Assembly (NCBI GenBank): GCA_944325185.1
Contig: CALUZA010000046.1
Location: forward strand, 1-64,000
DNA: 64,000 nucleotides
From: Candidatus Gastranaerophilales bacterium
Lineage (GTDB): Bacteria > Cyanobacteriota > Vampirovibrionia > Gastranaerophilales > Gastranaerophilaceae
Reading direction: 5' to 3'
Positions within the stretch are counted from its first letter, which is position 1. Each line of letters opens with the position of its first letter. Below are positions 27,778 to 52,199 of the stretch, piece by piece. Made by a program: the position numbers and the translations under genes. The notes below the pieces were generated by a model, which was not told the origin of the DNA, searched no databases, and saw only the letters and a program-made list of their open reading frames with translations.

Positions 27778-27807
27778 AAATTGAATATTTGCGCTTGTAG
27801 CTCAGCT
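27778..27807 (+). repeat. Duplicate of the tRNA-Arg 5' half, copy 1
   Basis: This 30-nt copy of the sequence around the tRNA start (upstream AAATTGAATATTT, then the acceptor 5' strand and D-stem through CAGCT) has one mismatch against the copies at 27950 and 28084. It stops in the D-loop where the structured element T1 begins, so it cannot make a tRNA. Confidence 0.9.
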
Positions 27808-27949
27808 AAATGCGAAGCCGGTGCGAAACGAGCTTTCTATTAGAAAGCGAGGTAAGCATTACGATTGCGATGTAGGATAATTGAACAAACGAACGACAGC
27901 GTTAGCGGTAGTGAGTTTTGTGAAATACCCACAGGAGCTACAGGGCAAG
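27808..27949 (+). repeat. Structured repeat element T1
   Basis: A 142-nt GC-richer insert after the first tRNA half. It shares its first 19 nt (AAATGCGAAGCCGGTGCGA) with T2. It contains CGA-[GCTTTCT att AGAAAGC]-GAG at 27829-27851, the same flanks as a hairpin in the groEL repeat locus, and ends with a hairpin at 27911-27932 followed by AGGAGCTAC, matching the 3' module of T2. No ORF. Probably a folded RNA or ssDNA element. Confidence 0.7.
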
Positions 27950-27980
27950 AAAACTGAATATTTGCGCTTGTAGCTCAGCT
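27950..27980 (+). repeat. Duplicate of the tRNA-Arg 5' half, copy 2
   Basis: These 31 nt are identical to 28084-28114, which covers 14 nt upstream of the tRNA and its first 17 nt. Like copy 1 it ends at CAGCT and is followed by AAATGCGAAG. Confidence 0.92.
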
Positions 27981-28083
27981 AAATGCGAAGCCGGTGCGAT
28001 AATCGATAAGGCGTTGAGCCTTAGCGTTTAAGCAGTCGATGAGCGACGTGGAAATCTTTGATTTCCTCAGGAGCTATAAGTAT
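27981..28083 (+). repeat. Structured repeat element T2
   Basis: This 103-nt insert has the complete module set: a stem TAAGGC/GCCTTA with GTTGA loop (28007-28023, extended by CG/CG), then GAGCGACGTG, a 9-position hairpin (28048-28068) with a conserved T-T mismatch, and CAGGAGC. The layout matches E1 and E2 after groEL, but the stem sequences differ while pairing is kept. No ORF or promoter is evident. Confidence 0.75.
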
Positions 28084-28097
28084 AAAACTGAATATTT

Positions 28098-28171
28098 GCG
28101 CTTGTAGCTCAGCTGGATAGAGTGTTTGGCTACGAACCAAAAGGTCGGGGGTTCGAATCCCTCCAAGCGCG
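28098..28171 (+). tRNA. tRNA-Arg (anticodon ACG)
   Basis: The 74-nt cloverleaf has a 7-bp acceptor stem GCGCTTG/CAAGCGC, a D-stem GCTC/GAGT, an anticodon stem TTGG/CCAA around the loop CTACGAA (anticodon ACG) and a T-arm with GTTCGAATC. The 3' CCA is not encoded. A strong terminator follows. The 14 nt upstream plus the first 17 nt are duplicated twice upstream, and the last 11 nt are duplicated downstream, marking the gene as a recombination or integration site. Confidence 0.97.
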
Positions 28172-28229
28172 TATTAAAAAAAGAAGCTAAAAAAATGCTT
28201 CTTTTTTTACACGACACTTGTCGGGATGC
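28161..28229 (+). repeat. 69-bp direct repeat at the tRNA 3' end, copy 1
   Basis: This covers the last 11 nt of tRNA-Arg (CTCCAAGCGCG), its terminator and the trailing sequence to GGGATGC. It is identical to 28293-28361. A repeat that starts in the 3' end of a tRNA is the usual form of an attachment site for integrative elements. Confidence 0.9.
28176..28208 (+). terminator. Terminator of tRNA-Arg
   Basis: A perfect 12-bp stem AAAAAAAGAAGC with GCTTCTTTTTTT (28176-28187 with 28197-28208) has a 9-nt A-rich loop. Confidence 0.9.
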
Positions 28230-28292
28230 AACCGCTTCGCTTTTGCCCTCTCAAAAAACTTGCCCATTGGGGCAACTTTTTTTCGGCAGAGT
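28230..28292 (+). other. 63-nt segment between the two 69-bp repeats
   Basis: There is no ORF. It contains a terminator-like hairpin TTGCCC/GGGCAA (28260-28265 with 28270-28275) followed by CTTTTTTT. It joins directly to the second tRNA 3' end copy at 28293 and may be the remnant of an integrated element. Confidence 0.5.
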
Positions 28293-28361
28293 CTCCAAGC
28301 GCGTATTAAAAAAAGAAGCTAAAAAAATGCTTCTTTTTTTACACGACACTTGTCGGGATGC
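28293..28361 (+). repeat. 69-bp direct repeat, copy 2 (att-like)
   Basis: This is identical to 28161-28229, including the tRNA 3' 11 nt and a second copy of the terminator hairpin (28308-28340). Its right end joins abruptly to a truncated XRE regulator gene at 28362. Confidence 0.9.
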
Positions 28362-41682: not shown

Positions 41683-43383
<1,701 letters not shown>

Positions 43384-43478
43384 AGGATGTGAGGGCGTGA
43401 CGGTGAAGCGTTGAGCTTCATCGAACAGCCCGACACTGGACTAAAGCGACGTGGGACTGAAAGTCCCTCAGAAGCAAA
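43384..43478 (+). ncRNA. Structured repeat element E1
   Basis: This 95-nt element has stem S1 GGGC (43393-43396) with GCCC (43428-43431), then linker GTGA, hairpin S2 (43401-43409 with 43415-43423, loop GTTGA), linker AACA, then AAAGCGACGTG and hairpin S3 (43451-43458 with 43462-43469, loop GAA, T-T mismatch), ending CTCAGAAGCAAA. S1 and S2 differ from E2 by compensatory changes. No ORF. Transcription is unproven; called ncRNA for its covarying fold. Confidence 0.65.
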
Positions 43479-43533
43479 CTTTTGAAATTCGAGCTATACT
43501 CCGACTGGAGTTAGCGAGAATGAAAAAGCAAAA
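43479..43533 (+). repeat. Linker module with CGA-hairpin-GAG, between E1 and E2
   Basis: It has a hairpin GCTA-(T)-ACTCC / GGAGT-TAGC (43493-43515, loop GACT) flanked by CGA and GAG exactly as in T1 at the tRNA locus, although the stem sequence is unrelated. It therefore belongs to the same element family. Confidence 0.6.
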
Positions 43534-43629
43534 AGGTGTGTGAGCTCGTGATGTCAGACCGTTGAGGGCTGACAGACAGAGCGAAACCGTACCAAAGCGA
43601 CGTGGGACTGAAAGTCCCTCAGAAGCAAA
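43534..43629 (+). ncRNA. Structured repeat element E2
   Basis: This is colinear with E1 without gaps from S1 onward (offset 151 nt). S1 is GCTC (43544-43547) with GAGC (43579-43582); S2 is a 9-position stem (43552-43560 with 43566-43574) with one A-G pair and a GTTGA loop; linkers are GTGA and GACA. The 3' 36 nt are identical to E1. Its end joins directly to the second groEL repeat. Confidence 0.65.
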
Positions 43630-43686
43630 GGAATGATGTAATTTTTTACAGCGCTTGTGCGCTGTTTAAAATTACGAATGACCCAA
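43630..43686 (+). repeat. 57-bp direct repeat of the groEL 3' end, copy 2
   Basis: This is identical to 43327-43383, including the last groEL codons and stop, here not preceded by the gene. The two copies bracket the E1-E2 cassette like a very long target duplication or a tandem duplication. Confidence 0.92.
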
Positions 43687-43706
43687 TAGGATTTAAATTT
43701 ATCAAG

Positions 43707-43736
43707 AAATGCCAAGGTATATACCTTGGCATTTTT
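43707..43736 (+). terminator. Terminator of the groEL operon
   Basis: A 12-bp stem AAATGCCAAGGT with ACCTTGGCATTT (43707-43718 with 43723-43734) has loop ATAT and a T tract. It lies after the repeat cassette, so groEL read-through would transcribe E1 and E2. Confidence 0.85.
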
Positions 43737-50795: not shown

Positions 50796-52199
50796 ATGAA
50801 TCAACTAATAATGATTTTACTTATAAGTTTACTTATTTTAGTTCATGAAATAGGACATTTCGTTGCGGCTAAAATTTTCAAAGTTAAAGTGGTTCGTTTT
50901 GGAATTGGAATGCCGATAGGACCATCTTGGAAGCTTTTTAGATGGAATGATACAGTATTTTATTTGCATGCATTTTTATTTGGCGGGTATGTTTCTTTTG
51001 CAGAAGCAGAATCAGAAAATCCGGAGAATGAATCTGAAGCAAATAAGGAAAATGTTGATGAAACTTTGCCTAAAGATTCCCCCGAATTGTATGATAATAA
51101 AACAATTGCGCAAAAATTGATAATTGTTTCGGCGGGAGTTATTATGAATATTGTTTTTGCGGTTGCTCTTGTAATTTTTGCAGCGGCATATTTTCATAAA
51201 CTTCCTGCTTCAATTCAGAATATATATGTAGATAGTTTTTCAAATAAAATAACTTCAAATATTGAAAAATCAGGAATTATTAAAGGTGATAAATTTTTAA
51301 AAGTAAATGATAAAAAGATTAATTCTTTATATCAGTTAACCTTTTTTGCAAAAAATTCAAAATTATTTGATGATTATGCTCAAGAAAATTTGATTGAAGA
51401 AAATTTAAAAGAATTAAAAAAATTAAATCCTAATATAAGTGAAGAAATAAAAGCAGGAACTACCATTTATTTGCCTGCAATTAAAGCTGAAAAACCTTTG
51501 GAAATAAATGAAAATGTTTTAAAGGGACTTGAAAAATATAAAAAAGACGGCATTGAGCTTACAAAAACACAAATTGAATTAAGAGATGAGCTGTATAATA
51601 AAAAAGCTTATAAATTTACAAATCCTATAACTTTAAATGATGTTGCAACTGCTCTTTCGGATACTTATAAACCTATGAGCATTACTGTTTTAAGAAATAA
51701 TAAAGAAATAGTCTTTAATAATATCATTACAAATAAAGATGGAATGCTTGGCGTAATGTTAAAAATTGAAGATGTATATACTGAAACAAAAACCCCAAAA
51801 CAAATTGTCTTAAAGTCAATTAACTATATTTATACAACTACAACAACAATGTTATATAGCTTATGGCAGTTAATTACAGGTAAAGTTTCTGCTTCTGATA
51901 TGCATGGAGTTATTGCGGTTGTGAAAGTGGGCGGAGATATAATTGCTTCAAAAGGAATGTTAAACGGTATTCTTTTGACTGCTATGATTAGTATAAATCT
52001 AGCAATTATGAATTTTCTTCCCATACCTGCGCTTGATGGCGGGCATGTTATGTTTTTATTAATTGAAAAGTTTACAGGTAAAAAACCCGACAGGGAATTG
52101 AGTGAAAAAATTAATAACTTTTTCTTTATTTTATTAATAATTTTAATGGTGAGCATTTGTTACAACGATATTTTTGCTCTAATTACGAAAAAATTGTAA
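50796..52199 (+). CDS. rseP: Site-2 (RseP/MmpA-type) intramembrane metalloprotease
   Basis: The protein has 467 aa. The zinc motif H17-E18-x2-H21 sits in the first helix (LVHEIGHFVAAK), and the third ligand D414 lies in PIPALDGGHV. One PDZ-like region lies between. The central periplasmic part is enlarged: an insert around 195-285 contains LKELKKLNPNISEEIKAG then TTIYLP, which resembles the second half of a LysM motif. The family cuts membrane-bound anti-sigma factors or signal peptides. ATG with AAAGGAGC upstream. Confidence 0.92.
   Translation: MNQLIMILLISLLILVHEIGHFVAAKIFKVKVVRFGIGMPIGPSWKLFRWNDTVFYLHAFLFGGYVSFAEAESENPENESEANKENVDETLPKDSPELYDNKTIAQKLIIVSAGVIMNIVFAVALVIFAAAYFHKLPASIQNIYVDSFSNKITSNIEKSGIIKGDKFLKVNDKKINSLYQLTFFAKNSKLFDDYAQENLIEENLKELKKLNPNISEEIKAGTTIYLPAIKAEKPLEINENVLKGLEKYKKDGIELTKTQIELRDELYNKKAYKFTNPITLNDVATALSDTYKPMSITVLRNNKEIVFNNIITNKDGMLGVMLKIEDVYTETKTPKQIVLKSINYIYTTTTTMLYSLWQLITGKVSASDMHGVIAVVKVGGDIIASKGMLNGILLTAMISINLAIMNFLPIPALDGGHVMFLLIEKFTGKKPDRELSEKINNFFFILLIILMVSICYNDIFALITKKL

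Follow-up and report, generated by a model that had tools for sequence, protein, structure and literature searches.

Our analysis indicates, with a probability of about 0.6, that the two structured elements behind groEL, E1 and E2, are the B-C portions of two units belonging to a mosaic palindromic repeat of the Gastranaerophilaceae that is dispersed, non-coding, non-autonomous and of a REP-, RPE- or MITE-like kind. This reading rests on the covarying stems, the many copies, their restriction to one family, the occupied and empty states of their sites, the swapping of hairpins and the presence of the groEL tail elsewhere. The elements lie in the window, by which we mean the whole 64-kb stretch of DNA analyzed, from a draft genome of 1.74 Mb in 63 contigs that is 94% complete. 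The features referred to below are as follows:

27778-28096, plus strand: second array of related modules, with the scaffolds GCGAAGCCGGTGCG and GCGAYGT..CAGGAGC, between two partial tRNA-Arg 5′-end copies and the real tRNA
41686-43338, plus strand: groEL open reading frame, whose last codons and stop, GGAATGATGTAA, are the 5′ arm of the T hairpin
43327-43383, plus strand: T1 (module A), groEL tail and hairpin, GTAATTTT..ACAGCGC-TTGT-GCGCTGT..AAAATTAC, plus GAATGACCC
43384-43442, plus strand: E1 module B, with stem S1 at 43393-43396/43428-43431, stem S2 at 43401-43409/43415-43423 and loop GTTGA at 43410-43414
43443-43478, plus strand: E1 module C, AAAGCGACGT-[GGGACTGAAAGTCCC]-TCAGAAGCAAA
43479-43528, plus strand: module D, CTTTTGAAATTCGAGC..GCGAGAATGAAAAAG, a hairpin with a tandem G.A internal loop (33 unique relatives; fold z = -4.8)
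43534-43593, plus strand: E2 module B, with S1 at 43544-43547/43579-43582, S2 at 43552-43560/43566-43574 and loop GTTGA at 43561-43565
43594-43629, plus strand: E2 module C, identical to E1 module C
43630-43686, plus strand: T2, second groEL-tail hairpin, an exact 57-nt copy of T1
43705-43736, plus strand: intrinsic terminator downstream of the array

From the groEL stop codon to the terminator, the array thus reads T1, E1 (B and C), D, E2 (B and C) and T2, and from this position it would be transcribed as the 3′ UTR of groEL. The initial annotation, which had placed E1 and E2 after groEL, described most of their architecture correctly. From S1 to their ends the two elements align without gaps, each spanning 86 nt as read directly, and their last 36 nt are identical (43443-43478 and 43594-43629). 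In E1, S1 is GGGC/GCCC, the linkers are GTGA and AACA, and the S2 arms CGGTGAAGC/GCTTCATCG flank GTTGA; in E2, S1 is GCTC/GAGC, the linkers are GTGA and GACA, and TGTCAGACC/GGGCTGACA flank the same loop. The claim that the 9-position S2 stays paired in both elements held overall, but E2 carries one A.G mismatch and E1 one G.T; most relatives have a purine-purine mismatch at position 3 of S2. Module B of E1 scored 72.9 bits against the B covariance model (fold z = -4.1), and that of E2 72.6 bits (z = -2.8). Two parts of the array had gone unnoticed, namely the 57-nt T hairpin repeated exactly on both sides, with a fold z of -6.2 and a further occurrence behind pnp in a relative, and the third hairpin, D, between E1 and E2.

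Within the window, only E1 and E2 scored highly against the B covariance model, and the same model identified at least 20 copies in the genome as a whole. The repeat was present in 18 of 20 sampled genomes of the genus and, order-wide, in 48 of 286 genomes from 12 of 50 sampled genera, all of them in one family (f1, Gastranaerophilaceae). A motif of the form GTGA-N9-GTTGA-N9-RACAG occurred in 19/28 genus genomes and its reversed control in none, while a scan of 84,980 species with one exact pattern matched Gastranaerophilales MAGs only, and searches of phage, plasmid and viral-contig collections for the repeat gave no match. Many copies lie at contig ends, as expected of repeats that break assemblies. 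groEL itself is present in 28/28 genus genomes and complete in 26, contig ends cutting it in the other two (G009 and G014). The notion that E1 and E2 are a groEL-specific pair was rejected, given the copies dispersed across the genome, genus and family. In the literature library searched, no paper joined Gastranaerophilales with a repeat and a hairpin, and to our knowledge the family has not been described so far.

Covariation of the stems was assessed on 37 distinct copies, which were found without any pairing requirement and hand-picked from 65 unique ones to avoid near-duplicates. Among them, 94.0% of stem cells were paired, compared with 70.3% (sd 1.4) after shuffling and at most 43% with slid partners, and the covariation score was 0.672 versus 0.205 for shuffled copies. 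Watson-Crick pairing in S2 stood at 0.851, and swapping 3′ arms among copies lowered it to 0.573, with a maximum of 0.656 in 2000 trials. Many S2 types are found in combination with the S1 types GGGC/GCCC, GCTC/GAGC, GAGC/GCTC and GTCC/GGAC. The stems of D covary independently, with its 4-bp stem perfect in 32/33 unique copies as ATTC/GAAT, GTTC/GAAC, GTTT/AAAC, ATTT/AAAT, GCTC/GAGC or GCTT/AAGC. The covariance-model search of related genomes proposed in the initial annotation, run with a model of module B, returned many homologues whose stems covary and which match no known class. The selection on an RNA or single-stranded DNA fold that it had claimed is strongly supported by these 37 copies as far as maintenance of the fold goes. 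E1 and E2 are nevertheless two of many dispersed, recombining repeat units and not a compensating pair descended at one locus.

The unit as a whole is X-B-C, about 150 nt with three hairpins, in which X is either the D hairpin or the A hairpin. Its cleanest form in other genera is D-B-C, about 155 nt, directly 3′ of tRNA genes; the junction ..CCCAA/ACTTTTGAA.. recurs behind three different tRNA genes (L232, L233 and L238), and at L233 two tandem units are followed by a truncated third. The alternative X, module A, reads GGAATGATGTA..GAATGACCC. A single scaffold accommodates differing hairpins before CAGGAGC, as in GCGACGT-[GGGACTGAAAGTCCC], GCGACGT-[AAGAGTTTTACTTTGTAAAACTC] and GCGACGT-[TTCAAATTC..GAATTTGA], and at two loci (L130 and L134) the B scaffold incorporates native terminators as its hairpins. 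By reading of the sequences, the internal loops are largely tandem G.A.

Comparison of congeners revealed both occupied and empty sites. Module-free groEL tails were found in G006, G008, G010 and G022, and most other congeners have differently composed arrays starting from the stop codon. The 5′ side of tRNA-Arg is empty in G001, G004 and G014 and filled in G000, G002 and G023, where a portion of the tRNA 5′ end is repeated. A unit with the groEL tail (..ATGGGAATGATGTAAAACC..) sits behind pnp in G003, flanked on either side by a repeat of the pnp tail. An in-frame D-B-D insert of about 41 amino acids occurs in the membrane protease RseP of G001 (L006) and G014 (L010), while the window's own rseP (50796-52199) is without it. 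In the ribosomal protein operon, arrays lie between rpsH (S8) and rplF (L6) at three loci (L021, L023 and L043). After the C end, upstream sequence recurs in 24/78 cases, compared with 6/343 random points; these flanking direct repeats vary from 19 to 105 nt, which argues against one fixed target duplication. Among the 65 copies with a scored upstream gene, 49 are codirectional with it and 16 opposite.

Several further observations concern tRNA genes. At 27778-28096 in the window, two partial copies of the tRNA-Arg(ACG) leader and 5′ end are each followed by a related hairpin mosaic, and the same upstream site is found in single-insert or empty states in relatives. At 28161-28355, the tRNA-Arg 3′ end and terminator are duplicated around an insert of about 70 nt, AACCGCTTCGC..CGGCAGAGTC, itself a further hairpin module lying on the minus strand. 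At L036 (G000:C14), much as in the tRNA-Arg case, a tRNA-Pro gene follows a truncated tRNA-like copy that carries module inserts. A different type of insert lies upstream of tRNA-Arg at L160 (G011), L168 (G027), L171 (G007) and L172 (G012): that of G011 carries a reverse complement of the tRNA-Arg D-arm (CACTCTATCCAACTGA), in tandem, and those of the other three are similar. These inverted D-arm inserts suggest template switching at the tRNA gene.

Covariation is usually regarded as the best sign of a functional RNA. The array could be a structured 3′-UTR RNA, its units working within the transcript as sense-strand RNA, for instance as an mRNA 3′-end stabilizer, an RNase III/E processing site or a protein-binding RNA, with RNA selection keeping the stems. 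Its position between the groEL stop codon and an intrinsic terminator would suit such a role, as would the codirectional majority of copies and the copies within tRNA and ribosomal-protein transcription units. The sense strand also folds better than the antisense strand in 55/60 copies with RNA parameters; DNA parameters, however, gave the same bias (58/60), so we rejected sense/antisense folding as evidence for RNA, since it does not discriminate. The pair counts used all 39 unique stem combinations rather than the 37-row set. G.U made up 7 of 453 standard cells (1.5%) in module stems, about seven times rarer than in the stems of tRNAs at the same loci (62/557, 11%; Fisher 1.6e-10), although tRNAs are essential RNAs and selection on them differs from that on a dispersed repeat family; A.C (4) was not much rarer than G.U (7). 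Module stems had 122 cells with two-sided changes and 4 with one-sided ones, compared with 154 and 41 in the tRNAs. A spanning tree of the stems was less clear-cut: single steps of the two kinds were about equally common (14 one-sided and 12 two-sided in one tally, 18 and 15 in another), and 8 larger steps were purely two-sided. The near-absence of G.U and the scarcity of one-sided changes favor a fold at the DNA level over RNA. Also at odds with a 3′-UTR RNA are the four congeners without a groEL array, the other composition of the array elsewhere and the in-frame copies within a protein, and we regard such an RNA as somewhat unlikely. From the sequence evidence, we think it more probable that single-stranded DNA is the form in which the fold persists and/or that template switching, which is able to generate and preserve hairpins (PMC8794818), rewrites it.

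For a dispersed mobile repeat, the following course of events may be envisaged. The form recognized or maintained would be a single-stranded DNA hairpin of the plus strand, as the Watson-Crick stems, the tandem G.A internal loops and the fixed GNNGA loops lead us to infer. A putative host or mobile DNA enzyme would move the units, possibly aided, at C ends (..CAGGAGC/A), by slippage or recombination. Copies lie downstream of stop codons, beside tRNA ends, between the genes of an operon and now and then in frame within proteins, and tandem arrays build up from them. Both arms may be renewed at once, through template switching between arms or replacement of whole hairpins, and this would account for changes on two sides that pass through hardly any G.U intermediates. 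We also considered a bolder version, a new kind of DNA-hairpin replicator in which a candidate enzyme recognizes the folded single strand, so that motifs stay fixed while stems and captured gene tails or terminators are exchanged and both arms rewritten; we think this unlikely.

A search for the mobilizer in the genome and its congeners weighs on several further readings, bearing in mind that such an enzyme could be missed in a draft 94% complete. Against an omega RNA, TnpB (PF07282) was found in 0/11 genus genomes, this one included, with controls positive. Reverse transcriptase (PF00078), looked for in view of a retroelement, group II intron or DGR, was absent from this genome and present in 12/28 of the genus. 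No recurrent ORF that might represent an autonomous partner was seen beside copies, the clusters there being the host genes groEL, atpG, rpsH/rplF and rseP, named from reading of their translations. At gathering scores, with HEARO, the group II intron and riboswitches among the families covered, Rfam matched only a tRNA in the whole window, in keeping with the initial annotation, which could assign no known family; matches in the E1/E2 region were all below threshold and put down to chance, and likenesses to a kink-turn, a hammerhead and group II domain 5 were set aside as having no Rfam support. Mobilization as a REP/BIME by an IS200/605-type Y1 transposase (RAYT) would fit short extragenic palindromes that are often paired or tandem and biased toward gene 3′ ends, as REPs are (PMC3733652). 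Y1/RAYT (PF01797) is nonetheless absent from this genome and was found in 1/11 genus genomes (G005), the unit comprises three hairpins over about 150 nt, and a GTAG tag was not seen at its ends, making this origin highly improbable. An integron-like cassette array with an attC-like C, or CRISPR/casposon-like integration with target duplication, is barely credible and in our opinion largely refuted: the ends of C are indeed conserved while the hairpin that they enclose is highly variable, and in 24/78 cases upstream sequence is repeated after C, but integron integrase (TIGR02249) stayed below cut-off in 28/28 genomes, Cas1 (PF01867) exceeded it in 3/28 and was absent from this genome, GTTRRRY/RYYYAAC boxes were not seen at C by inspection, and the repeats range too widely in length, as noted above.

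It may also be that no mobile element is involved, and that template switching and slippage at palindromes make and remodel the hairpins with no dedicated enzyme. The two-sided changes with few intermediates, the inverted D-arm inserts and the partial last copies of tandem arrays all speak for this. However, the same scaffolds, loops and unit order recur at dozens of unrelated sites in 12 genera, and the groEL tail behind pnp represents a dispersal of sequence beyond local template switching alone, so that we deem this account improbable and retain the dispersed, non-autonomous repeat as our preferred reading. In an uncultured gut lineage, the repeat extends to the loci of groEL, tRNA, ribosomal-protein and rseP genes. 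Its strong covariation, found in a dispersed family together with very few G.U pairs and scarcely any one-sided changes, offers a natural setting in which to ask whether recognition of single-stranded DNA hairpins or template switching can counterfeit RNA covariation.

We compared the family with four kinds of known systems. Bacterial MITEs (Correia/NEMIS, ERIC, RUP, Nezha) are likewise base-paired, non-autonomous inserts of small size that lie near genes and are transcribed; here, neither terminal inverted repeats nor a target duplication of fixed length were established, and the direct repeats at C ends vary in length. Template-switch hairpins have been inferred in the evolutionary past of RNA genes, rRNA among them (Monttinen and Loytynoja, 2022; PMC8794818), and our stems resemble them in changing on two sides without intermediates, but differ in belonging to a dispersed repeat family. 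REP/BIME elements, with GTAG or CGTC tags, are high-copy extragenic palindromes that occur paired or in tandem with a bias to gene 3′ ends, and the CGTC class has no known transposase (PMC3733652); they consist of a 20-40 bp palindrome plus an unpaired tetranucleotide tag, whereas the present unit has three hairpins, no tag was established for it and no RAYT was found in its own genome. Rickettsia palindromic elements are about 100-150 nt long and dispersed, both between genes and in frame within conserved proteins (PMC2229807, PMC10969869), and the Gastranaerophilaceae family, as a non-coding palindromic repeat with intergenic copies and the in-frame rseP insert of G001 and G014, likewise shows these traits. 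The likeness is one of behavior, drawn by description, and the scan of 84,980 species with the exact pattern gave no Rickettsia match; unlike the RPEs, which belong to another phylum, this repeat is a mosaic of swappable hairpins with tandem X-B-C units, copies at tRNA 3′ ends and captured host-gene tails. RPEs are thus its closest counterparts in behavior and REPs the next, but because a mosaic of swappable, covarying hairpins that captures host tails is distinctive, we do not file the family as a member of the REPs, RPEs or MITEs.
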